A stretch of 28,397 nucleotides of DNA from a virus, in the IMG/VR virus record IMGVR_UViG_3300009156_000074, positions 1-28,397 of that record; one strand, given 5' to 3'. Of this stretch, positions 6,393 through 28,355 are shown one piece after another. The translations under genes were made by a program, and so were the position numbers. Positions within the stretch are counted from its first letter, which is position 1, and the number at the start of each line of letters is the position of its first letter. The notes beneath the pieces are model-generated. The model had not been told where the DNA came from, ran no database searches, and saw only the letters and a program-made list of their open reading frames with translations.

Positions 6393-9118
6393 TGGCAGTC
6401 GGCTTTGTAGCCTCAGCTACTAGCGGCTCGCAGGCTAGCGTCGCATCGTTCAACATCGGTACCCTTGGTACTGGTGCCCGTTGTGGTCTGGTCTTCGTTG
6501 CTACCCACGCTGCTGGTGACATCATTACTGGAGTCACCTGGAATGGCGTAGCAATGACGCGACTATTCCGAGCAGAGGACACAGATACAGAGCCCGGTTC
6601 GGTCGTCGCGTACTTCCTCGATAACGTCACCAACGGGACAATCACAGTCTCTCGTACTAACAACGCAAGCGTCACAGTCGGTTACGCGGTCTCGATCTCA
6701 GCTGCCGGTCCGTGTCAGGCATTCCAGACGATCACACGCGTCGCTGCTACACAGAACACGGACGCGAATACGTCTACGACGGGTACGGGTGCCTCTGGTG
6801 AGGTAGCGGTCTCCGACGGGTCTCCCGGTACTAACTCAATGCGTTTCGCAGCGGCTTATACGGGAGCTGCGTCACCTGTACTGCAAGGCACCAACAGTAC
6901 CCTCCTCCAGAGCCTTGACAGTACCGCTCTTGGATCATCCTTCGTCCGAGAGACGACTGCGGGACAGGGTAGTCGTAATGTAGGCTTCGCTACCGGCACA
7001 ACAGATGACTGGGCCCTGGTAGCGGTTGCTGTTCGTGAGAGTCCACCGCAGACTGTCACACTTGGACTGTTGGATGCGTCTGCAGCCCTTTACGCGCCTA
7101 CGATTGCGGGCTCGTCGCAGTCTGTAACTCTTGGGCTCCTAAACGCAGGTGCTACGCTTTACGCTCCGATAGTCAGTACCGGCTATCCTAGAGAGGTCTT
7201 CCCGGACACGCCAACTTCCTACTGGAGGTTGGGAGAGGCATCTGGAACTGTAGTTGACTCTGCAGGGTCGAATTCAGGATCGACTACAGGCACTGTTACG
7301 AGAGACGCCGCCGGATTGATCGGTCCTGACGATGATGGGGCTGTTAGCTTCGCTGCGAGCAGCTACATCAGCGGTTCTCTGGCTGCACCTATCGGCAACG
7401 TATTCTCGGTCGAGGCGTGGGTCAAGTTGCCCGCTTCCGGCACGACCACGATCTGTCCGTTCAGCACCAAGGGCACCGTTAGCAACATCAGTATGGAGAT
7501 CGCCCGCTCGGGCGGGGCTGGCAACAACTTTACGATCAAGGGCTTCGTGTACGACGGTGCTACCTACGACATCGTGGCTCTCAGCACGGACCTCGCGGTC
7601 GCCCCTGGTGGCACGTATCACATCGTCTGGACTCGAGCCGGGACGTTGGCAGCACAGAATAAGATCTATGTCAACGGCGTTGACGTCAGCGCGGTCGCGT
7701 CTGTCACGCAGGTCGTCGTCAACAGCGACACGACGTTCTACATCGGCGGTTTCGAGGGTACCGCCGAGACTTGGGTCGAGACAATTGACGAGGTCGCACT
7801 GTACAACGGTACGGCGCTATCTGCAGCTCGCGTCCTCGCTCACTACAACGCCGGGACGAAGCTACAAACGCTCACACTTGGACTTCTCGATAGTGGTGCC
7901 GCGTTGTACGCACCAACGCTGGTTGGCAAGAACGCAATCAGCCTTGGACTCCTCGATGCGGGTGCAGCGCTCTACGCAGTCACTCTCACGACTGTTAATG
8001 GCATCACGATTGGTCTCCTCGATGCGTCTGCTACGCTGTATGCTCCAACACTAGAGCAAACAGGTGGCGCAACGCAGCTCACACTCGACCTCCTTGACGC
8101 TGGTGCGACGCTTTACGCTCCAACGGTGTCGGCGATCAGCTCCGTCTCATTGGGGTTGTTGGACTCGTCGGCAGCGTTGTATGCACCTTCAGTCACGACG
8201 ACGAACACAATCAGTCTTGGTCTACTCGACGCTGCGAATGCACTCTATGCGCCGACGCTCTCAACTGTCAACTCTGTCACACTCGGACTTCTCGATGCTG
8301 CGAATGCATTGTATGCGCCTACACTCATTCAGGATCAGTTCGTCACACTGGACCTGCTTGACGCTGGCAACTCGTTGTACGCACCGACCTTTGCGACGGT
8401 CAATGGCGTAACTCTGCCGCTTCTGGATGCAGGTGGTGCGCTCTACGCACCAGACCTCATTCAGGATCAGTTCGTCACTCTGCCGCTCTTGGATTCCGGG
8501 CCAACGACATATGCGCCGTCACTCGCTGCAATCTCAACGTTGACGTTCGGACTTCTGGATGCAGGCGCAGCGCTCTATGCGCCTACAGTGATTCAGGATC
8601 AGTTTGTCACACTGCCACTGCTGGACGGTGCTGCGACGCTCTACGATCCGACTATCACTGTTGGTACGACGATCACGTTCGCGCTGCTAGATAGTGGCTC
8701 TGCTCTTTACGCACCGACGATCCTACAGCAGCAGATCCTCTCGCTGCCGTTGCTCGATGCTACCGCCGCGTTGTACGCCCCAACAGTGGTCCCGAGCGCG
8801 GTCACGATCGACGTTGGCTTCCTCGATGGGTCGCCAATGCTCTTCGCTCCTACAGTCGAACCTGCAGCTACCACCTTCACACTCGATCTACTGACGTCCG
8901 ATGCGGAACTCTACGCACCTCTGATTGACGTTGGTGCCGTCACGATAGGGTTGACACTCCTCGACGCTGGAGCCGCACTCTACGCACCCACAATCTTCGA
9001 ACCCGCTGGCGGACCCTTCGGGCCTATACGAATGAATTCCTCCGGGCAGATGACGGGCCGGGAAAGCCGCTACGCAACACGCATGCGCGAGAGTCGCGAA
9101 AGGATGACAAGTGGCTGA
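6392..9118 (+). CDS. Large repetitive adhesin-like virion protein with LamG-like domain
   Basis: This is a 908-residue secreted-type beta protein without enzymatic motifs. Residues 1-218 form a beta-sandwich similar in layout to the start of the hub gene at 17020. From residue 220 there are 19 copies of a ~22-residue motif with core L-L-D-x-x-x-x-L-Y-A-P-T. Between copies 2 and 3, residues 263-490 form a concanavalin/laminin-G-like domain: SYWRLGEASG, FSVEAWVKLP, YHIVWTRAG, KIYVNGVDVS and ETIDEVALYNGTAL. The last 35 residues are basic (RMNSSG, RESRYATRMRESRERM). The LYAPT repeat is known from phage tail and virion proteins. Carbohydrate binding by the LamG part is inferred. The gene sits between small head proteins and connector genes, an unusual place for a tail fibre, so a head-surface adhesin is an alternative. 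Confidence 0.75.
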   Translation: MAVGFVASATSGSQASVASFNIGTLGTGARCGLVFVATHAAGDIITGVTWNGVAMTRLFRAEDTDTEPGSVVAYFLDNVTNGTITVSRTNNASVTVGYAVSISAAGPCQAFQTITRVAATQNTDANTSTTGTGASGEVAVSDGSPGTNSMRFAAAYTGAASPVLQGTNSTLLQSLDSTALGSSFVRETTAGQGSRNVGFATGTTDDWALVAVAVRESPPQTVTLGLLDASAALYAPTIAGSSQSVTLGLLNAGATLYAPIVSTGYPREVFPDTPTSYWRLGEASGTVVDSAGSNSGSTTGTVTRDAAGLIGPDDDGAVSFAASSYISGSLAAPIGNVFSVEAWVKLPASGTTTICPFSTKGTVSNISMEIARSGGAGNNFTIKGFVYDGATYDIVALSTDLAVAPGGTYHIVWTRAGTLAAQNKIYVNGVDVSAVASVTQVVVNSDTTFYIGGFEGTAETWVETIDEVALYNGTALSAARVLAHYNAGTKLQTLTLGLLDSGAALYAPTLVGKNAISLGLLDAGAALYAVTLTTVNGITIGLLDASATLYAPTLEQTGGATQLTLDLLDAGATLYAPTVSAISSVSLGLLDSSAALYAPSVTTTNTISLGLLDAANALYAPTLSTVNSVTLGLLDAANALYAPTLIQDQFVTLDLLDAGNSLYAPTFATVNGVTLPLLDAGGALYAPDLIQDQFVTLPLLDSGPTTYAPSLAAISTLTFGLLDAGAALYAPTVIQDQFVTLPLLDGAATLYDPTITVGTTITFALLDSGSALYAPTILQQQILSLPLLDATAALYAPTVVPSAVTIDVGFLDGSPMLFAPTVEPAATTFTLDLLTSDAELYAPLIDVGAVTIGLTLLDAGAALYAPTIFEPAGGPFGPIRMNSSGQMTGRESRYATRMRESRERMTSG
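7049..8998 (+). repeat. Protein-coding tandem repeat array (19 LYAPT units of ~66 nt), interrupted by a LamG domain
   Basis: Nineteen in-frame units of about 66 nt encode variants of V-T-L-G-L-L-D-A-G-A-A-L-Y-A-P-T. Units 7-16 are all exactly 22 residues. Units 1-2 are separated from units 3-19 by the LamG-like insertion at about 7178-7862. Unit 17 has V-G-F-L-D with L-F-A-P-T, and unit 18 has L-T-S-D in place of L-L-D-A, so the ends are more diverged. Synonymous positions differ widely between units, so the array is old overall. Confidence 0.9.
8327..8616 (+). repeat. 132-nt higher-order repeat within the LYAPT array
   Basis: The sequence ATTCAGGATCAGTT (or its close variant) followed by GTCAC begins at 8327, 8459 and 8591, exactly 132 nt apart, or two 22-residue units. 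It encodes I-Q-D-Q-F-V-T at the junction of alternate units. Nucleotide identity here is far higher than between neighbouring units, which points to a recent two-unit duplication or gene conversion. Confidence 0.8.
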
Positions 9119-9749
9119 ACCGATTGACAGCCTGAGGGTCATGCTCAACGACCCAATCACTGACTACACGGACACGGCTTACGGTGATGGGGTCAAGACG
9201 ACCTTCTACACTTCCCACAAGCCGTTGTACGCAACGCCATCCGTGTCTGTTGACGGAAGTGCTGCGAGTCCAACTGTTACCCTCTCCTCTGGGAAGTTGG
9301 TGTTCCTAGCTGCTCCTGGAGATGGACTTCTCGTCGTCGCAGAGTACCAAGCAACGGTATTCACCGACGCGCAGATCCAGAGCTTCTTCGACGTCTCCGG
9401 GTTGGGAGCAAACCTCGACCTAGCGGCTGCAGCCGGGTGGAGGGCAAGAGCGGCACGGTACGTCGAGGAAGTGAACTTCACCGCTGACGGGGTGGAGGTT
9501 CAGAACTCGACCAAGTACCGTGCAGCGTTGCAGCAAGCACTCGCGTATGAGCAGAAGGGGAACTCGGCGAGTGCGCTGTTCTATTACAGTAGTGGCATTC
9601 CCACCGCCGGGGGTATCGATACAGACGAGAAGCGGTACCAGGAGGAGGATACCTATCGAGTCAAGCCTGCATTCGCTCGGGACATGATGCGCCCGGAGTT
9701 CGACACGGTCACTGCCGCACAAAGGATTACGTCAGAAGATGTCAGATAG
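9111..9749 (+). CDS. Head-tail connector (adaptor) protein
   Basis: This 212-residue protein starts at a GTG overlapping the repeat-protein gene by eight bases. The N-terminal part has DSLRVMLNDP, a beta region (DGVKTTFYTSHKPLYATPSVSVDG and KLVFLAAPGDGLLVVAEYQATVF) and then FTDAQIQSFFD, followed by an Ala-rich helix AAAAGWRARAARYV. This is the layout of connector proteins that sit under the portal (HK97 gp6 / SPP1 gp15 functional class), as seen in many actinobacterial phages. The C-terminus (about residues 175-212) is polar. The next structural genes are a stopper-like protein and a tail completion protein, consistent with a connector module. It overlaps the glycosyltransferase by 11 nt. Confidence 0.7.
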   Translation: MAEPIDSLRVMLNDPITDYTDTAYGDGVKTTFYTSHKPLYATPSVSVDGSAASPTVTLSSGKLVFLAAPGDGLLVVAEYQATVFTDAQIQSFFDVSGLGANLDLAAAAGWRARAARYVEEVNFTADGVEVQNSTKYRAALQQALAYEQKGNSASALFYYSSGIPTAGGIDTDEKRYQEEDTYRVKPAFARDMMRPEFDTVTAAQRITSEDVR

Positions 9750-10956
9750 CGTACTGCCGCCGCTAAACATTCTCTGGCACTCTGTTGCCCCATGGGTGGG
9801 AACCGGATACGGAGTGCAAACGAACCTCACTCTCAAGATGCTCAAGGCGTTGGGGCATGAACTTACGCTCTCCGCGTATTCGGGCATTGAGGGTGGGACA
9901 CTTCGCACTGAGGACTACCTCATCCTCCCGCCGGGTAGGAAGGCCTACGGGAACGACATCATCGCTGCACACGTCCAGAACATCAAACCCGACGTGGTGA
10001 TCAGCTTGTTGGATGTCTGGGTCCTGCGAGCGGACTTTGGTGAGAAGTGCGAGGGGAACTGGTACCCGTGGGTACCGATCGATCACGAACCGCTCGTGCC
10101 GCTAGTGAAGACTTGCTTGTCGACGGCCAAAGAGGTCATCGCCATGAGTGAGTTCGGTGCAAATGTTCTCCGAGCGGGCGAAGTCCCGCGCGTGACATTT
10201 ATACCGCATAGCTTCGACCCGGGGATCTACCAACCTTATAACGTTGAGCGTTTTAGGTGGCGAAAGCAGGTTCTAGGGCTCGCGCCGGAGGATTTCGTCG
10301 TAGGGATCGTCGCTGCGAACCATGGTATCCCGTCACGGAAGGCGTTCTGGGAAAACATTCAAGCCTTCGGCAGGCTTGCGAGGGAGCACGACAATGTCTA
10401 CCTGTATCTCCACACGGAGATCGATCAGGCTGACGACTACCACAACGCCGACATTCGCTACTACTTGGAGCAGGCCGGTATCCCAGAGGGGCGGCTTAGG
10501 TTCGCGGATGGGTACGGTCTCTGGTTGGGGTATGGTACGGCATACATGGGTGGCATGTACAATGGCCTTGACGGCCTTCTCTTCGCCTCCATGGGAGAGG
10601 GATTCGGTGTTCCCCTCATTGAAGCCGGTGGATGTGGTGTCCCCTCTATCGTCACGAACTTCTCTGCACAGCCTGAACTGATCCAGCATCAGGTGACCGG
10701 GTACATCGCTGATGTGGCGATCGAGACAATCATGCACAGTCCACCAAATGCGAAGCAGGTCATTCCGTCGGTGGACAGCATCTACGAAGGTCTTCGGTGG
10801 CTGTACGAGAATGCGAAGGATCCTGTGACGCGCGAGATTACGGCAGAGACCGCTCGTGCACGATGGAGCTCACCTGTTGTCCAGGAACAGTACTGGAAGC
10901 CATTCCTTGAACGAATTGCGGAGACGAAGCACGCGATGACGAATGCCTTCGCTTAA
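9739..10956 (+). CDS. GT-B glycosyltransferase (GT4-like)
   Basis: This 405-residue protein has a GT-B fold pattern. The N-terminal Rossmann-like half starts with LNILWHSVAPWVGTGYGVQTN (the Gly-rich acceptor/donor loop) and includes PDVVISLLDVW and VIAMSEFGANVL. The C-terminal half starts at FVVGIVAANHGIPSRKAF and contains the E-x7-E nucleotide-sugar motif, E287 in MGEGFG and E295 in LIEAGG, followed by CGVPSIVTNFSAQPEL. Together these are diagnostic of family 4 type retaining enzymes. It would transfer a sugar from a nucleotide-sugar donor; the acceptor is unknown and could be a virion protein, phage DNA or a host envelope polymer. It overlaps connector genes on both sides (11 and 14 nt), so it is expressed with structural proteins. 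Confidence 0.88.
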   Translation: MSDSVLPPLNILWHSVAPWVGTGYGVQTNLTLKMLKALGHELTLSAYSGIEGGTLRTEDYLILPPGRKAYGNDIIAAHVQNIKPDVVISLLDVWVLRADFGEKCEGNWYPWVPIDHEPLVPLVKTCLSTAKEVIAMSEFGANVLRAGEVPRVTFIPHSFDPGIYQPYNVERFRWRKQVLGLAPEDFVVGIVAANHGIPSRKAFWENIQAFGRLAREHDNVYLYLHTEIDQADDYHNADIRYYLEQAGIPEGRLRFADGYGLWLGYGTAYMGGMYNGLDGLLFASMGEGFGVPLIEAGGCGVPSIVTNFSAQPELIQHQVTGYIADVAIETIMHSPPNAKQVIPSVDSIYEGLRWLYENAKDPVTREITAETARARWSSPVVQEQYWKPFLERIAETKHAMTNAFA

Positions 10957-11353
10957 CTTCCCAGTTGACATGATCCGTAGGGACCAGGAAGCTGCGATGC
11001 CGGGTGTGTGCGTTCTCTCCCGCCCGACGATCACACGAGGTCCGCTAGGTGGAAAGGGAACCGCAACGGTCTACACCACTTTCGGGACTGTTGCTTGCCG
11101 CGTTCGTCCTCTATTTGGACAGGCAACTGAAGCCGAGATTGCTAACCGGTGGACCGATAGGGAGAACTGGCTCATCTCTATCCCGTACGACTCGCCGACG
11201 TTGCAGCCACAGGATCGAATCGAGTATCGGAACCCAAATGTCCATACGCAGGTTCAGGTATTCGACGTCCACAATGACGACGACGCTAAAGGCGAGTGGG
11301 ATACGGTTCGACGGATAGTTGCGATGCGAACTGGTGGAGGTGGAGCAGTCTAA
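10943..11353 (+). CDS. Head closure / stopper-like protein
   Basis: This 136-residue protein overlaps the glycosyltransferase by 14 nt and ends in a one-base overlap with the next ATG. Its pattern (RRDQEAAMPGVCVLSRPTITRG, then TVACRVRP, TDRENWLISIPYDSPTLQPQDRIEY, then a final VRRIVAM strand) fits the small beta-barrel head-closure proteins of siphoviruses. In that class the barrel with the L-Q-P-Q-D-R-I loop plugs the connector (SPP1 gp16 class and actinophage equivalents). Position between the adaptor and the HK97 gp10-like protein supports the call. The sequence alone is not strong evidence. Confidence 0.65.
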   Translation: MPSLNFPVDMIRRDQEAAMPGVCVLSRPTITRGPLGGKGTATVYTTFGTVACRVRPLFGQATEAEIANRWTDRENWLISIPYDSPTLQPQDRIEYRNPNVHTQVQVFDVHNDDDAKGEWDTVRRIVAMRTGGGGAV

Positions 11354-11802
11354 TGGCGTCGCCGGCTATCTACGCAAGCCAAATTGGTAAGGCCAAGAGG
11401 CAGGCTGTAGGTACCGGATCGCATGCCATTGTGGTGAAGCTCGAGAAGCGCCGCCTTGAGATGCTTCGTGGAAGCGCAAAGGGCAACTTGACCAAGATGG
11501 TCAAGAAGATGGCGAACGACGTCTTGTCGTACGCACAGATGTTCGTCCCTGTAGATACAGGTACGCTGAAGGCGTCGCTTAAGATCTACGACGACGTGAC
11601 GGGGCTCTTTCACCAGGTCGGTGGAACCTTCCTGATCGCCATTGCTGTAGGATCGCCTTTGGACTACGCCATCTACCCGGAGTACGGAACTTCGAGACAA
11701 GCTGCGCAGCCGTACCTCGGACCGGCGTTCGAACTGGGAACGAAGAACATCGAGGTCATGGTCGAAGAGTACCTCGTTCGCAAGGGGCTACGTGGTGGCT
11801 AG
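11353..11802 (+). CDS. Tail completion protein, HK97 gp10-like
   Basis: This 149-residue protein starts at the ATG sharing one base with the preceding TAA. The longer open frame to 11296 lacks a better start. It has the hallmarks of the gp10-like family: a basic N-terminal helix (VVKLEKRRLEMLRG), VPVDTGTLKASLKI at residues 65-78, then an Asp-Tyr-Ala-x-x-x-E-Y-G-T block at 104-113 and Q-P-Y-L-G-P-A-F at 119-126. These proteins join tail to connector or finish the tail end. It overlaps the next gene by 11 nt at a GTGGTG pair. Confidence 0.82.
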   Translation: MASPAIYASQIGKAKRQAVGTGSHAIVVKLEKRRLEMLRGSAKGNLTKMVKKMANDVLSYAQMFVPVDTGTLKASLKIYDDVTGLFHQVGGTFLIAIAVGSPLDYAIYPEYGTSRQAAQPYLGPAFELGTKNIEVMVEEYLVRKGLRGG

Positions 11803-12220
11803 TATCGACGTCTTCTCCGCATTCGAGACGAAGCTCGATGCACGTCTCATCGGTAGTACCGCACTCGTAACCTTCCTTGAGGGTCAGTTCGTTTACAACC
11901 ATGTGGCGTATCCGGAGGCCCCAGGCTCCGGGTACGTCATCTATCAGAACCAGACGCAGGTAGCGACACAGGTTCAGGCTAAGGGGAACTACTCGCTACT
12001 GTACTACATCAAGGGTGTGGTAGCCGGTCCGGAGAACATCGAACGGGCTGCGTACATCAATACACTCATTCGGCAGGCGGTAAATGAACAGCCTGTCGAC
12101 ATGACAGCAGATGGATACCTGAACTTCAGGATCCGCGAAGAAGGAGGGCAGAAGTATCCGGACAACTTTGGATACTGGCACCACGGCGGACTGTACCGCG
12201 TTCTCATCGAAGAGCAGTAG
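11792..12220 (+). CDS. Tail terminator-like protein
   Basis: This 142-residue protein lies between the gp10-like protein and the tail tube, the standard slot for the tail terminator (lambda gpU / DUF3168 functional class). The sequence has a helical start (IDVFSAFETKLDARLIGSTALVTFL), a central beta part (GSGYVIYQNQ, then YSLLYYIKGVVAGP), the helix IERAAYINTLIRQAVNEQ and an end YRVLIEEQ. This alpha/beta order suits the class. Two adjacent in-frame GTG codons (11792 and 11795) are possible starts. The call relies mostly on position and overall architecture. Confidence 0.65.
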   Translation: MVASIDVFSAFETKLDARLIGSTALVTFLEGQFVYNHVAYPEAPGSGYVIYQNQTQVATQVQAKGNYSLLYYIKGVVAGPENIERAAYINTLIRQAVNEQPVDMTADGYLNFRIREEGGQKYPDNFGYWHHGGLYRVLIEEQ

Positions 12221-12229
12221 GAGGAACTA

Positions 12230-12628
12230 GTGGCCATCCACACCGGTGTTAACGGTAGTGTGGTCGTTGTCATCGCTGGCACGACAGCTACTGTGACCAA
12301 GGTGTCCGAGTTCAGTGTGGAGATCGAACCGGCGACGACTGAGTTCCGCATTCTCGGTGATGTCTGGCAGAACCGAGTGTATGTCGGGAACGACGCTTCT
12401 GGCACGTTCACGGCACAGTGGGATCCAGCAGATACGTCCGGTCAGGTCGCGCTCACGAACGCGGCACTAGGTGGAACCGCAGTCCTGTTGAAGTTGTACG
12501 ACACCGCGTCCAACTACTGGCAGGGTTCTGCGTTCATCAACGGACTGTCTCAGGCAGTCAGTAACGACGAGGTTGTCTCTCGCGAGTTCAGCTTCGGTGG
12601 TACTGGCGCTGCTTGGACGTACACCTGA
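12230..12628 (+). CDS. Major tail tube protein
   Basis: This 132-residue protein starts at a GTG behind a strong TAGGAGGAA ribosome site, in keeping with a highly expressed subunit. Beta-strand pattern: SVVVVIAGTTATVTKVSEFSVEIE, TTEFRILGD, then GTFTAQWDPADTSGQVALTNAALGG and VVSREFSFGGTGAAW. The GTFT...D..DTSGQ..L strand-turn is typical of small tail tube proteins, which stack as hexameric rings around the tape measure. It comes after connector genes and before chaperones and tape measure. No sheath gene accompanies it, so the tail is non-contractile. Confidence 0.78.
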   Translation: MAIHTGVNGSVVVVIAGTTATVTKVSEFSVEIEPATTEFRILGDVWQNRVYVGNDASGTFTAQWDPADTSGQVALTNAALGGTAVLLKLYDTASNYWQGSAFINGLSQAVSNDEVVSREFSFGGTGAAWTYT

Positions 12629-19299: not shown

Positions 19300-19845
19300 A
19301 TGCCCTGGACTACTCCACCGACCTTCAGTCCGGGTGCGGAGCTGACGGCGGACGAACTGAACATCCTCTCCGACGACCTGAACTACCTGAAGGGTATTGC
19401 TGACGGCGTTTCGATCAACGGTGTAATCGTCACACGCGCAGCTACACAGTCCATCTCGACCTCAACGTCGACGACGGTCTCTTTCAGTGCGGAGGTCGAT
19501 GACTACGGTGGATGGTGGTCTTCGGGTACTGACATTGTCGTTCCAGCAGGTGCCATTCCAGCCGGGTTCACACATATCCTAGTAGACATCGACGCAGAGT
19601 GTCGTTGGGCAGCGAATGGTACCGGTGCACGCGTCCTAGTGATCTACATCAACGGTGTGGCTCAAGACCCCGGTCGGCGTATGGCTGCTGTCGGTGGAGG
19701 TGACTCAACTGATATGGGCATTAGTCGTAAGTTCAAAGTGGCGGCTGCAGATGTGATTACCCTTCGTTGCTACCAGAACTCAGGTAGCTCGTTGAACATC
19801 TCGAACGTCGTCTTCTCTTGCTTCCGGTACGCACCAGCTGACTGA
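19300..19845 (+). CDS. Tail protein with C1q-like C-terminal domain
   Basis: This 181-residue protein has GAGGTG as ribosome site. The N-terminus (PWTTPPTFSPGAELTADELNILSDDLNYLKG) is a recurring virion-attachment segment of tail fibre proteins. Residues about 45-181 form a jelly-roll of C1q/TNF-like type: QSISTSTSTTVSFSAEVDD, D-I-V-V-P-A-G-A-I, AECRWAANGTGARVLVIYINGVA, and a final ISNVVFSCFRYAP. In phages such domains often trimerise and bind receptors. It shares a one-base TGATG overlap with the fibre gene downstream. The attachment segment is well supported; receptor binding is inferred. Confidence 0.68.
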   Translation: MPWTTPPTFSPGAELTADELNILSDDLNYLKGIADGVSINGVIVTRAATQSISTSTSTTVSFSAEVDDYGGWWSSGTDIVVPAGAIPAGFTHILVDIDAECRWAANGTGARVLVIYINGVAQDPGRRMAAVGGGDSTDMGISRKFKVAAADVITLRCYQNSGSSLNISNVVFSCFRYAPAD

Positions 19846-21257
19846 TGAAAGAGACACGTCAGACCGGTCGTAGTAAGCGACGCGTCCAGATCCATGACCA
19901 CTCGGACACGAACTCTGGTGGGCAGCTGCGACAGAGTCGAGCCATTGAGGGTGGACTAACGGTAATCACCGGTTCCATTCCGCCATCAAGTGGTTCCGCA
20001 CTGACAGTCAAGGACGAAGGTACTCCACTTGCGTCCGATGCTACATCGCTCGACTTTGTAGGAGCCGGTGTCACGGCAAGTGGAACGGATGTCGCTAAGA
20101 CGATCGCGATCACGGACGAGAAGGCGAAGGTTTCGGCGAACGACACGACGCCGGGTTACCTCAACGGCAAGCTGGTAGCGGGAACTAACGTCACCCTAAC
20201 CGAGAATAGCGACGGGGCGAACGAGACACTCACCATCGCAGCATCAGGTGGAGGAGGTGGTAGTGGTACACCTCCGGATGCTGATACCTTGTACTACACG
20301 ACTGGTAATATCACGCACACTAGTACGACGCTGTCGGCGTTGTCTGGTCCGCGAGACCTCGTTGTAGACGCTCAAATCGGCGACGTGATATCCGTTGACC
20401 TTGGTGCACAACCGAACTCGGCAGCTGCACAATCTATGGCGTTCGACTACGCGGTTATGGTTGGCGGGTCTCCTGTACGCTATCTGAACTCTGGTACGTC
20501 TACTCCGAACAACATCCCTACACACTGGTACATTGCGTCGAACGAAGGTAGTGGAACAGGCGGGGCGATGCACTACGTCGTTCAATCAGGTGACCTATCT
20601 GGTGGGACAATTACGTTACGGCTGTATTGTCGCGTGTCTGGGTCTCGTACAGTCAACGCGTCGTCGTCAGCACCACTGTTCATGTCGGTCGTCAACTTAG
20701 GGCGACCGGGTAGTGGCGGTGGTGGTATACTCGACGTTGACTCCCTTCGCTATACGGCAGGCGACATTACCTGCGTTGCCAACAATGCCTGGGAGAACAT
20801 GCCGAGTGTCGGCACTCTAACGCTCGTAGCGACAGAGGGAGACTGGATCCAAGTCGGCGTGTCGTTCGGGGTGTTCAATACAACAGCACAGAGCATCAGC
20901 TTCGACGTCGGGACTGAGGTGTCATCGTCGATTGTCAATCACATCTCTTCGGGTGCAGCGCCAGACGATGCTCAGTTCGGTATCGCGGGTTGGCGCGTAC
21001 CGGCAAGCGCGCAGGGTAGTGCTAGTGGGTCAATCTTTTACCAACTCCAGTCGAGCGACATCTCTAGTGGCACTGTCACCCTTCGTCTCCGAGACCACCC
21101 CGAGGGGTCGACTGACCGAGTAGTTAACGCGTCTACCGCTCGGCCCCTCCACTTTTGGGCAATCAATCTTGGGCAAGTGGGCGGGGCCTCAAGTGACACT
21201 ACACCGGCAGTCGTTCTGGCAGCCGGTCGAATCTATGGAGCTGCAACGTGGAGATGA
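19845..21257 (+). CDS. Tail fibre with two tandem receptor-type domains
   Basis: This is a 470-residue fibre. Residues 1-35 are basic and contain IHDHSDTNSGGQL, a motif frequent in tail fibres. Residues 50-135 have a beta-helix-like segment (ALTVKDEGTPL, SLDFVGAGVTASG, LVAGTNVTLTEN). Glycine linkers (from about 135 and about 293) precede two homologous domains, about 143-292 and 298-450. Both share D-x-L-x-Y-T-x-G-x-I-T, G-D-x-I-x-V, A-Q-S-(M/I)-x-F-D, S-G-T-x-T-L-R-L and R-x-V-N-A-S-(S/T)-x-x-P-L. They are therefore an internal duplication with strong divergence. Host receptor recognition is the likely role. The start overlaps the preceding stop. Confidence 0.72.
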   Translation: MKETRQTGRSKRRVQIHDHSDTNSGGQLRQSRAIEGGLTVITGSIPPSSGSALTVKDEGTPLASDATSLDFVGAGVTASGTDVAKTIAITDEKAKVSANDTTPGYLNGKLVAGTNVTLTENSDGANETLTIAASGGGGGSGTPPDADTLYYTTGNITHTSTTLSALSGPRDLVVDAQIGDVISVDLGAQPNSAAAQSMAFDYAVMVGGSPVRYLNSGTSTPNNIPTHWYIASNEGSGTGGAMHYVVQSGDLSGGTITLRLYCRVSGSRTVNASSSAPLFMSVVNLGRPGSGGGGILDVDSLRYTAGDITCVANNAWENMPSVGTLTLVATEGDWIQVGVSFGVFNTTAQSISFDVGTEVSSSIVNHISSGAAPDDAQFGIAGWRVPASAQGSASGSIFYQLQSSDISSGTVTLRLRDHPEGSTDRVVNASTARPLHFWAINLGQVGGASSDTTPAVVLAAGRIYGAATWR

Positions 21258-22339: not shown

Positions 22340-22428
22340 TGACTAACGAAGTGTTCGTCGTTGTGCTCATCGCGTCTGTTGCATTCATCATTGGGTTCAT
22401 CGTCGGAGTAGGTTCAAGTGGCAAGTAG
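22339..22428 (+). CDS. 29-residue single-pass membrane peptide
   Basis: An ATG sharing one base with the preceding TAA opens a 30-codon frame ending at 22428. The peptide is MTNEV, then a ~20-residue hydrophobic segment (FVVVLIASVAFIIGFIVGVG) and S-S-G-K. Composition and length are those of a single transmembrane helix with a Lys at the C-terminal end. The TAATG coupling upstream and the 11-nt overlap with the TadE-like gene downstream place it in the same translational chain. The function is unknown; it could help the pilin-like neighbours or act as a small lysis or membrane factor. Confidence 0.6.
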   Translation: MTNEVFVVVLIASVAFIIGFIVGVGSSGK

Positions 22429-22810
22429 AGGTCAGGCGATAGTAGAGTTCGCTCTCAGTCTGCCTATCCTACTCTTTATGATGCTTGGGTTTGCGGAAGC
22501 AGCCTTCATGTTCGCGGAACGCGACTTGGTGCAGCGAAGTGCGAACGTCCTCGCCGATGTAGCCGCTAGTAAGATGGCTATCGAACCAGGCGAGAGTTGG
22601 CAGGCGGGTTGGAATTCTCTTGTAGCACAGGAGGCAGCTAACGCGGGTTGTGACTTGGTAGACTCGTTCGTAACCTTCCCGGACGAGACACACAACGAAG
22701 GTGATCGGGTGCGCGTCCAGATCCGCTGTCGTTACCATACACGCATTATGCACGACTTGTGGCCTGGCCTGATTCTCATGGGTGAAGGTACTTCGGTAGT
22801 GAGGTCGTGA
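22418..22810 (+). CDS. TadE-like pseudopilin
   Basis: This 130-residue protein starts at a GTG inside the 29-residue peptide gene. It opens with MASRGQAIVEFALSLPILLF. A short basic leader ending at Gly5 is followed by Q6, with Glu10 at +5 and Phe11 at +6, then a hydrophobic helix to about residue 32 and F-A-E-R-D-L-V-Q-R-S-A-N-V. This is the class III prepilin pattern and matches TadE-like pseudopilins (PF07811) throughout its first 50 residues. The C-terminal globular part (residues 55-130) contains C78 and C104, a possible disulphide, and ends in V-V-R-S. TadE proteins are minor components of Flp/Tad pilus assembly, cleaved by a dedicated peptidase. No other Tad assembly gene is in the window, so host machinery would be needed. 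Confidence 0.8.
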   Translation: MASRGQAIVEFALSLPILLFMMLGFAEAAFMFAERDLVQRSANVLADVAASKMAIEPGESWQAGWNSLVAQEAANAGCDLVDSFVTFPDETHNEGDRVRVQIRCRYHTRIMHDLWPGLILMGEGTSVVRS

Positions 22811-22817
22811 GGGCAAT

Positions 22818-23390
22818 GTGGCTTGGAGTGGAAAGGAGCGTCGAAAGCAGCCCCGCCCAACTGTTGGGACGCCTACCTACATCGTGGAGAAAGACGCACC
22901 AGCGTGGAAACACCCACAGTCGTACGATGGGAGATGGATACGGAAGGCGATTGATAAGGTCCGTGGTCCAATTCACGACGCCTATCCGGATCATGAAATT
23001 CCATTCGAGGATATGCAACGGCAACTGCCAATTGTGGCAGAACACCCGAGGCCAAGAGTTCGAGATGGTGATGCACACTTGATCGTCGTCGGAAAGCACG
23101 CCTCAAAGGTCGTACCGCTAGTAGGAGTAAGCCTAGCGAAAGTCGACTTCGGAAAGCGAATGGTCCAAGCGTGGATCCTCAACTCAATCAAGGAGGCAGT
23201 GGACGAAGTGCTAGCACTAGACGAAGAGCACGACAAGGGCCAAGGTCTCGCTGAGTACGCGCTGATTCTCGCACTGATCGCCATTGTTGCGATTATCGCG
23301 CTTACCATCCTCGGACAGCAGATTGCGCAGGTCTTCACCGACCTTACGAACAACCCAGGTCTTGGTGGTGGCGCGACTCCTGCCCCATGA
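22818..23390 (+). CDS. Flp pilin-like protein with long N-terminal extension
   Basis: This 190-residue protein begins at a GTG, eight bases after the TadE-like gene, with GAGGG upstream. Residues 140-178 are Flp-like: DKGQGLAEYALILALIAIV and onward, with Gly141 as cleavage residue, Q142 as +1, Glu146 at +5 and Tyr147 at +6. A ~20-residue hydrophobic helix and QQIAQVFTDLTN follow. The end is Gly/Pro-rich. Flp pilins are normally 50-75 residues with short leaders; here about 141 residues precede the cleavage site. An in-frame ATG at 23160 (residue 115) would give an ordinary 76-residue pilin, but the upstream 114 codons are open and protein-like (GDAHLIVVGKHASKVVPLVGVS). It overlaps the next gene by four bases. 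Confidence 0.75.
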   Translation: MAWSGKERRKQPRPTVGTPTYIVEKDAPAWKHPQSYDGRWIRKAIDKVRGPIHDAYPDHEIPFEDMQRQLPIVAEHPRPRVRDGDAHLIVVGKHASKVVPLVGVSLAKVDFGKRMVQAWILNSIKEAVDEVLALDEEHDKGQGLAEYALILALIAIVAIIALTILGQQIAQVFTDLTNNPGLGGGATPAP

Positions 23391-26329: not shown

Positions 26330-26730
26330 GTAACCTGCTCGCCATTGACCCAGGGGATACAACAGGCGTAGCTGTCATCGATCTGGAGACGGAACATGTC
26401 GTGGGTGGTTACATCCTCGACAGTGTAAAGGGACTTGTGGGGATCTTCAACGCATACACACCGAAAGTGGTTGTGTGCGAAGAGTTCAACCGAGTCCACG
26501 GATCGAGTGGTCCACACACCAGGACCATGAAGCTCATCGGTGCGATTGAGCTTCTGTGTGTTCAGAACGGTGCACAGCTCGTCATGCAGTCCAACACCAT
26601 GAAGGACAGCTATGCCAATGAGGCAGCTGCTGATGACATGGTACAAGCATTGCCAGGTACCTCACGACGACATGTACGTGATGCTTTGGCACATGGGAAG
26701 TTCTATCTCGCCAAGAGGAAGATGGCGTGA
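26326..26730 (+). CDS. RuvC-like Holliday junction resolvase (RNase H fold)
   Basis: This 134-residue protein starts with MSNLLAIDPGDTTGVAV, the first strand of RuvC-type nucleases with catalytic Asp8. E52 or E53 in VVVCEEF and D119 in RRHVRDALAHG give the remaining acidic metal ligands in the usual order; H116 and H123 flank the last. Length is on the short side for RuvC and fits phage-type resolvases. It would cut branched DNA (replication or recombination junctions, or branched concatemers before packaging). The GTG start overlaps the preceding stop and its own stop overlaps the helicase start, so it is translated with both neighbours. Confidence 0.8.
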   Translation: MSNLLAIDPGDTTGVAVIDLETEHVVGGYILDSVKGLVGIFNAYTPKVVVCEEFNRVHGSSGPHTRTMKLIGAIELLCVQNGAQLVMQSNTMKDSYANEAAADDMVQALPGTSRRHVRDALAHGKFYLAKRKMA

Positions 26731-28355
26731 TTCACGGGCTATTGGACGGAACGGCGTCGCATCCACAACTGCGCATTACGTTCGACCCCAATAGCCCCGA
26801 ACGTGTCGTCATGCAAGTTCCGGGGAGGGTGAAATCTGGTCCTAACTGGATCACCTTCCCACGGGACTTCACCATCGTACGTATGTTGGACTATGCCGCC
26901 AAGGCAGTGAACCTCGAAGTGAGTTGGAACTACGGGGTCCTGCCATGGCTCGCGGAGGAGTCCGTCCGCTACCGAGAGACGGTTGAGGTCACGAAGAAGA
27001 CAGACACGATCGGGGATCCACGACTACATCCATACCAACGAGTGGGTGTAGAGTTCCTTCGTGTGGGTGAACGAGTCCTCCTAGCGGATGCACCCGGACT
27101 TGGGAAGACAGTACAGGCATTGATGGCTCTCGCATACGAGAAGCCAAAGCGTACACTGATCATCAGTACCGGTGCCAAGTGGAACTGGCGGCGTGAAGCT
27201 GCTAAGTGGGACTTCGAACCAATCGAAGTCGCAGATGGCGAACGGCATATGCGGTACAAGCTGCTTCGCAGTCACCCACCGCGCGTAGCCATCAACTACC
27301 ACATGCTGCTCACGTACCCAGAGATCCTTCAGACCAAGTGGGACATCATCATTGCGGATGAGGTCCACCACCTGAAGAACCACCAAACGAACTGGACCAA
27401 GAAGTCGTACACGCTGAAGAGCGAGCAGTTCTGGGGACTGACCGGTACGCCACTCATGAACAATGTGGACGAGATCTGGTCGCCACTTCACCTTCTGGAT
27501 CCGCACCGGTTTACCAGCTACTGGAGGTTCTTGGACCAGTACGCCATCCTAGAAGAGAACTACGCGTACGGTGGGAAGGAAGTCAAGGGGCCCAAGAACG
27601 TCTACTGGCTGAACCAGCTACTCGCACAGTACATGCTCCGACGTACCAAGTCGGAAGTGCTGGAACAGCTGCCACCGATGATCCCAAAGACCATCGACGT
27701 GGAACTGAGTGACGAACACCTAGCACTCTACCGGAAGGTGAAGAAGAACCTACTGGCAGAGATCAAGGAGTTCGGACTACTCCCATCTGATAACGCAGCA
27801 ACACTAGCAATTCGCCTTCGACAAGCTGTTAGTTGTCCACAGGTCCTTGGGTTACCCATCAAGAGTGCTAAGACCAAGGTCGCTGTCGACCTACTTGAGG
27901 AACTGATTGCGAATGGACAGAAGACCATTGTCTTCGGGTACTTCCGAGCCACATGTGAAGACCTTCGCGATCTCGCTACCGCTAAGAACTGGCCCGTTTA
28001 CTTCACAACTGGCGAAGTTGAACGCCGCCATCGTGACCCTACAATTGAAGCATTCAAAGCACATGAAGGCCCAGCGGTACTGGTGGGCACAATCGGCGCG
28101 TTGGGAGAGGCTTGGGACATCCCACAAGCCAACAACGTCATCTTCATGGAGAAGTCCTGGGTACCGTCGGATAATGAGCAAGCGTGGCAACGTGCGCACA
28201 GGGCGTCGACGGAGCACCAGATCATGGTCTACTCTCTCGTAGCGCGGAAGACCACAGACGTGCACCAAGAGAACGTCCTTGCACAGAAGGAAGGCAACAT
28301 TACGGAGGTGCTATTCTGGCACGAGATGATGCGCAGCCTCTTGGAGGAGGGATGA
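26727..28355 (+). CDS. SNF2-type superfamily 2 helicase/translocase
   Basis: This 542-residue protein starts at a GTG overlapping the resolvase stop. Residues 100-111 (LHPYQRVGVEFL) are the Q-motif region; 119-128 (LADAPGLGKT) is Walker A, with D-A-P in place of the usual D-E-M. D211-E-V-H (IIADEVHHLKN) is Walker B, and LTGTPLMNN (238-246) is motif III. YMLRRTKSEV, then TIVFGYF, VGTIGALGEAWDIPQANNVIFMEKSWVPSDNEQAWQRAHR supply motifs IV-VI, with arginines near 488-491. The first ~95 residues are a separate N-terminal domain. Phage SNF2 proteins use ATP to move along DNA or reshape DNA-protein complexes, often in replication or recombination. All core motifs are present, so it should be active. 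Confidence 0.92.
   Translation: MIHGLLDGTASHPQLRITFDPNSPERVVMQVPGRVKSGPNWITFPRDFTIVRMLDYAAKAVNLEVSWNYGVLPWLAEESVRYRETVEVTKKTDTIGDPRLHPYQRVGVEFLRVGERVLLADAPGLGKTVQALMALAYEKPKRTLIISTGAKWNWRREAAKWDFEPIEVADGERHMRYKLLRSHPPRVAINYHMLLTYPEILQTKWDIIIADEVHHLKNHQTNWTKKSYTLKSEQFWGLTGTPLMNNVDEIWSPLHLLDPHRFTSYWRFLDQYAILEENYAYGGKEVKGPKNVYWLNQLLAQYMLRRTKSEVLEQLPPMIPKTIDVELSDEHLALYRKVKKNLLAEIKEFGLLPSDNAATLAIRLRQAVSCPQVLGLPIKSAKTKVAVDLLEELIANGQKTIVFGYFRATCEDLRDLATAKNWPVYFTTGEVERRHRDPTIEAFKAHEGPAVLVGTIGALGEAWDIPQANNVIFMEKSWVPSDNEQAWQRAHRASTEHQIMVYSLVARKTTDVHQENVLAQKEGNITEVLFWHEMMRSLLEEG

Follow-up and report, generated by a model that had tools for sequence, protein, structure and literature searches.

To our knowledge, virion glycosylation has so far been shown only for a few mycobacteriophages, in which the glycan shields the particle against antibodies. 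Glycosylated virions have been described for Che8, Corndog and Myrna (Freeman et al. 2023, as related in PMC12363180, PMC12619734 and PMC11256854), with the glycans located at the C-termini of the capsid and tail tube proteins (PMC12363180, PMC12619734). Essential roles have been reported for Che8 gp110 and Corndog gp38 (PMC12363180, PMC12619734), two proteins that are grouped together by structure (PMC12363180). These systems comprise phage-encoded glycosyltransferases (GTs) and a methyltransferase. In Wildflower the gene order is portal, O-methyltransferase, GT, GT, GT, protease and capsid, so that the cluster lies inside the head operon, as do the GTs of the family described below. We take Wildflower to be a cluster O phage and kin of Corndog through the gp110/gp38 group.

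The window analysed here, a 28.4-kb IMG/VR virus record that represents a fragment of a genome, carries a GT gene inside its virion operon (9111-12628), as in the cluster O mycobacteriophages. Its gene order runs from a Mu-like portal gene, a ChaB/Mu-I-type gene, cement, capsid, small genes and a phrog_644 gene, via a 72-aa gene, a modular fibre, adaptor, GT, stopper, HK97-gp10 and terminator, to the tail tube, a TAC-like protein and the tape measure. The features on which the analysis relies are the following:

2727..3101, plus strand, capsid cement protein (PF09956, 1e-5)
3128..4072, plus strand, major capsid protein (phrog_1005, 7e-90)
5737..6165, plus strand, phrog_644 gene, upstream partner of the fibre module (phrog_644, 2e-21)
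6174..6392, plus strand, 72-aa gene that accompanies the fibre module (39-62% identity beside the module in five unrelated contigs)
6392..9118, plus strand, modular fibre-like protein (N-terminal module of residues ~1-217, LamG-like domain, 22-aa LLDxGxxLYAPT repeats)
9111..9749 (start at GTG 9111 or at 9141), plus strand, probable head-tail adaptor (phrog_1732, 1e-7)
9739..10956, plus strand, GT4-like GT-B glycosyltransferase of phrog_2170 (Pfam and PHROG profiles, invariant catalytic residues, AF2 model and Foldseek)
10943..11353 (start at 10943 or 10997), plus strand, head-tail stopper or head completion protein (PF05521, Phage_HCP, 9e-6)
11296..11802 (likely start 11353), plus strand, HK97-gp10-like tail completion protein (PF04883, 5e-9; phrog_5, 1e-15)
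11792..12220, plus strand, tail terminator (phmmer to terminators of GT loci, 4e-9)
12230..12628, plus strand, major tail (tube) protein, candidate acceptor (phrog_1407, 4e-9; 20.5% Ser+Thr)

The initial annotation had read 9739-10956 as a complete GT-B enzyme with an intact E-x7-E motif, and all lines of analysis agree with this. The frame is open on the plus strand from an ATG at 9739 and encodes 405 aa; the start is secure, as there is no alternative in-frame start upstream of the conserved NILWHS motif. The product matches Pfam Glycos_transf_1 (PF00534, 37 bits against a curated cut-off of 26.4) and Glyco_trans_1_4 (PF13692, 36 bits against 27), while the phrog_2170 glycosyltransferase profile covers most of its length (residues 12-360, E=1e-27). 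Both glutamates of the motif, E287 and E295, are conserved without exception in 16 relatives, together with G23, Y24, G25, D115, H116, H157 and K201. A Foldseek search with the AlphaFold model (pTM 0.81, mean pLDDT 74) retrieved the GT-B enzymes MshA (TM ~0.7), BshA, PimA and WaaG, together with phage "RfaG" proteins from the viral library. These bacterial GT4 enzymes share the GT-B fold and the E-x7-E motif with the window protein; however, structural identity is only ~13-17%, and they act on small-molecule or lipid acceptors, whereas the acceptor proposed here is a virion protein. Hence, 9739-10956 is confirmed as a real gene for an intact GT4-like (GT-B) glycosyltransferase.

This gene had also been described as overlapping connector genes on both sides, which was taken to imply co-expression with virion assembly rather than accidental cargo. 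The 11-nt overlap with the upstream gene (9111-9749) is certain; the 14-nt overlap at the 3' end exists only if the stopper begins at ATG 10943, and ATG 10997, with AGGA in front of it, is an equal or better candidate that would leave a 40-nt gap. Since approximately 11 of the 32 junctions in the window overlap, the arrangement supports co-transcription, yet it is nothing special. Promoter- or terminator-like sites around the GT gene were no more frequent than expected by chance.

A search of IMG/VR with the single GT returned 22 loci (~34% identity), while a profile recovered at least 590 family loci. The genome collection yielded 18 matches, mostly on short MAG contigs, and the pattern scans differed slightly between the two collections, so that this contrast is qualitative; even so, the family is clearly virus-rich. 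Phage records contained only four matches at 1e-5, and members from cultured phages are gp10 of Pontimonas phage phiPsal1, WWT39943 of Microcystis phage Mae-JY09 and gp14 of Synechococcus phage S-CBS4, which share both family and head-operon position with the window enzyme. Across 12 close family pairs dN/dS was 0.05-0.14, and the family is thus under strong purifying selection.

For synteny, genes were called, neighbours clustered and profiles built, giving sets of 81 and 121 non-redundant loci or GTs. In 116 of the 121, a capsid gene lies upstream of the GT and/or neck or tail-tube genes lie downstream, and in none of the 121 does the GT follow the major tail protein gene or precede the capsid gene. 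The capsid gene is found at most 1.5 kb upstream in 68 of 81 loci (median 483 nt). The capsids of these loci belong to two non-homologous families, an HK97-like one (phrog_10) and a phrog_267-like one. In one capsid lineage (MCPb), the GT is present in 49/49 loci with at least 3 kb of downstream sequence, and its slot varies (after the capsid, adaptor or stopper, or before the tail tube) while the gene itself is kept. Thirty-five of these contigs, counted by comparing contig names from the GT-based and capsid-based searches, were reached through the capsid gene alone, and all 35 carry the GT. The seeds of the capsid search were GT-positive loci, and capsid identities down to ~43% were covered without any GT-negative locus. 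Among the 121, the gene also lies between terminator and tail tube (L077, L094, L102, L284) or after the stopper (L253, L260, L264). The window GT, placed between adaptor and stopper without a companion, has a comparable slot only in L085. PHROGs lists phrog_2170 as a moron/auxiliary metabolic gene, whereas a gene of virion assembly is suggested by where it lies and by its companions. Two members of the MCPb lineage, L236 and L249, have two GT-family copies each in the head operon.

Most relatives have companion genes beside the enzyme, namely GT2-like, nucleotide-sugar epimerase/dehydratase, GT34-like and Methyltransf_24 genes, as well as fusions of FkbM and CmcI-like methyltransferases. The commonest of these, the GT2-like one, has homologues in Wildflower gp35 (7e-12) and Che8 gp109 (7e-8), and another companion (c23) is homologous to Che8 gp108 (5e-9). 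In S-CBS4, gp15 is matched by a companion profile and gp14 by the GT profile. A lone GT such as that of the window occurs in 13 loci; scans of the incomplete 28-kb window recognised no companion GT or methyltransferase gene. Fusions of up to ~890 aa that combine GT, FkbM and CmcI-like methyltransferase stand directly behind the capsid gene in L005-L023 (e.g. L011:6026-8647). Furthermore, a 130-aa protein (c6) is encoded between capsid and GT in L034, L036 and MCPb loci, sometimes as two tandem copies. It gave no PHROG or Pfam match and was recognised in 39 of the 49 GT-positive MCPb loci but not in the other 10; it is likely a decoration protein and possibly an acceptor.

We consider that glycosylation of a virion protein during assembly is the best explanation for 9739-10956, and a probable one. 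We infer activity, donor, acceptor and benefit as follows. A soluble GT-B enzyme would be produced alongside the head, neck and tail proteins, would draw a sugar from the host nucleotide-sugar pool and would place it on one of the virion proteins while the particle is being assembled or earlier; subunits of the capsid, the decoration or the tail tube are the likeliest targets. A second GT may then extend the sugar in the majority of relatives, with epimerase or methyltransferase products of the same operon modifying it; in the window virus only the first enzyme is seen, and its glycan would therefore be simple. As the relatives occupy the same particle-building block in other, mostly uncultured phages, the enzyme probably decorates the phage's own shell or tail with sugar. 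Family-wide position, companions and the homology of the companions to the mycobacteriophage clusters thus favour the general idea, raised in the initial annotation, of a virion-glycosylating enzyme co-expressed with assembly; they do not extend to the acceptor favoured there, the repeat protein. Several points count against virion glycosylation: the GT-family profile gave no match to the experimentally implicated Che8 gp108-110, the 28 kb show no companion, the capsid lineage of the window lacks the gene, and the enzyme sits on a long branch. The place of a gene in its operon is not in itself proof of what the enzyme acts on. As for size, the implicated Che8 gp110 (211 aa) and Corndog gp38 are small, whereas the conserved enzyme here is a GT-B of ~400 aa.

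The window is a mosaic of a capsid from a GT-free lineage and a neck and tail from enzyme-bearing lineages. For cement and capsid, every match is a phrog_1005 locus without the GT, and none of the 31 capsid relatives with 5 kb of downstream sequence carries the GT; inheritance of the enzyme together with this capsid is thereby rejected. The stopper, gp10, terminator, tail tube and tape measure find their matches mainly in GT-bearing loci (phmmer 2e-11 for the stopper), and the adaptor matches adaptors of GT loci weakly (~1e-5). The enzyme hence came with, or into, the neck-tail half, which weakly suggests a neck or tail-tube acceptor in the window virus. The nearest relatives of the tail tube, L260 and L262 (4e-15), are both GT-bearing, and in all three of its matches (L260, L262, L284; a small sample) the GT is shifted to the neck/tail side. 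In the bulk of the family the GT lies beside the capsid and c6 genes, which points to a putative head acceptor; the MCPa and MCPb capsid proteins inspected from GT loci have no Ser/Thr-rich C-terminal tails. The mosaic junction maps to 4072-9111, where the fibre module is located. An 8.8-kb contig from another metagenome (L027) is 99.9% identical to window positions 1-6777; it ends within the fibre gene, and the GT region is thus not covered by it.

The acceptor originally favoured was the repeat protein at 6392-9118, whose Thr/Ser-rich repeats the GT would glycosylate. It is an operon neighbour of the enzyme and is indeed Thr/Ser-rich, although moderately so (21.6% Ser+Thr against a window median of 12.5%), and not above other tail proteins, with 22.6% for 19845-21257 and 20.5% for the tail tube. 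The 72-aa gene and the N-terminal domain of ~217 aa, often with the phrog_644 gene (adjoining in L131, L132 and L135), form a module that is shared at 74-84% identity by otherwise unrelated contigs (window 6174-7051, L131-L136). Its N-terminal domain is predicted to be all-beta, with no significant Foldseek match and none in the PDB. The repeat arms that follow are entirely different between viruses (LLDAGAALYAPT, ATGGGVAT, SFTADAVIKRTQ, PAAAAITIGTATP), and the whole resembles a mobile anchor for fibres whose arms have been exchanged. If related phages kept GT and repeat protein together, as the initial annotation proposed to check, the pairing should recur; the N-module is present in only one of 120 other non-redundant GT loci, and the repeat protein itself is missing from all of them. 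That single locus, L134, does have a homologous N-module directly upstream of a phrog_2170 GT, accompanied by an epimerase-like and two GT-A-like genes. Of five longer contigs that carry the module, themselves fragments, four show no GT in the sequence available. An obligate partnership is rejected as a general rule, and with repeat arms so variable we regard this protein as a quite unlikely substrate.

A host wall or phage DNA target is less likely than a virion one. GT4 enzymes commonly act on cell-envelope glycans, and the presence of WaaG and PimA among the structural matches would suit an enzyme that acts late in infection on sugars of the wall or LPS, e.g. to keep progeny off debris or other phages out. 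Against this, window scans recognised no GtrA/GtrB-type membrane partner or flippase, and the GT has no membrane-spanning stretch (its highest Kyte-Doolittle mean over 19 residues is 1.17), unlike GtrAB serotype conversion; its position is linked to head-neck genes rather than lysogeny genes, and the retention in all 35 independently reached contigs of one capsid lineage also speaks against it, so that modification of the host surface appears unlikely. Glycosylation of hypermodified DNA, as performed by T4 enzymes, has precedent in that virus-encoded DNA glycosyltransferases exist (Pyle et al. 2024, as cited in PMC12619734). We nevertheless hold it to be very improbable, considering that the genes accompanying it in the head operon of relatives encode epimerases and sugar O-methyltransferase-like proteins; no base-hypermodification gene was recognised in the window either, a weak argument given that the window is incomplete. 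Finally, the GT could be recently acquired cargo with no role in the virion, a single gene absent from the capsid lineage of the window and on a long branch (nearest relative at 2.6 substitutions per site, join support 0.37), the length of which means that function could have diverged. This is scarcely credible, however, for a gene with GC and GC3 like those of its neighbours, a translationally coupled start and conserved catalytic residues, in a family under purifying selection that tens of lineages retain in the same operon.

With virion glycosylation as the preferred reading, it may be, though we advance this tentatively and with some doubt, that large lineages of uncultured environmental phages have sugar decoration of the virion as a core trait, close to obligatory. 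A GT-B enzyme belongs to the head-to-tail assembly operon in every sampled member of one capsid lineage, and its slot moves among capsid, neck and tail-tube genes, perhaps tracking its acceptor. Antibodies are not an evident threat to these phages, so the glycan would have a part in assembly, stability or adsorption and not in shielding from immunity. A different enzyme family, retained beside sugar-tailoring genes in the head-neck operon of many unrelated environmental phages, suggests that a sugar coat is common among virions and that its role is an older one. As far as the open-licence literature searched shows, the kind of system is known; what is new is the enzyme family and that environmental lineages have it as a core gene. 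The cultured members Mae-JY09, phiPsal1 and S-CBS4 make virion glycosylation directly testable.

Two further regions of the window deserve mention. Between the tail and lysis-region genes, 22418-23390 encodes a TadE-like protein (PF07811, 8e-8) and a second protein with a Flp/Fap pilin-like C-terminus (PF04964, 1.7e-5, below the cut-off). At the end of the record, 26727-28355 holds an SNF2-family helicase beside a small protein with weak similarity to DUF460.
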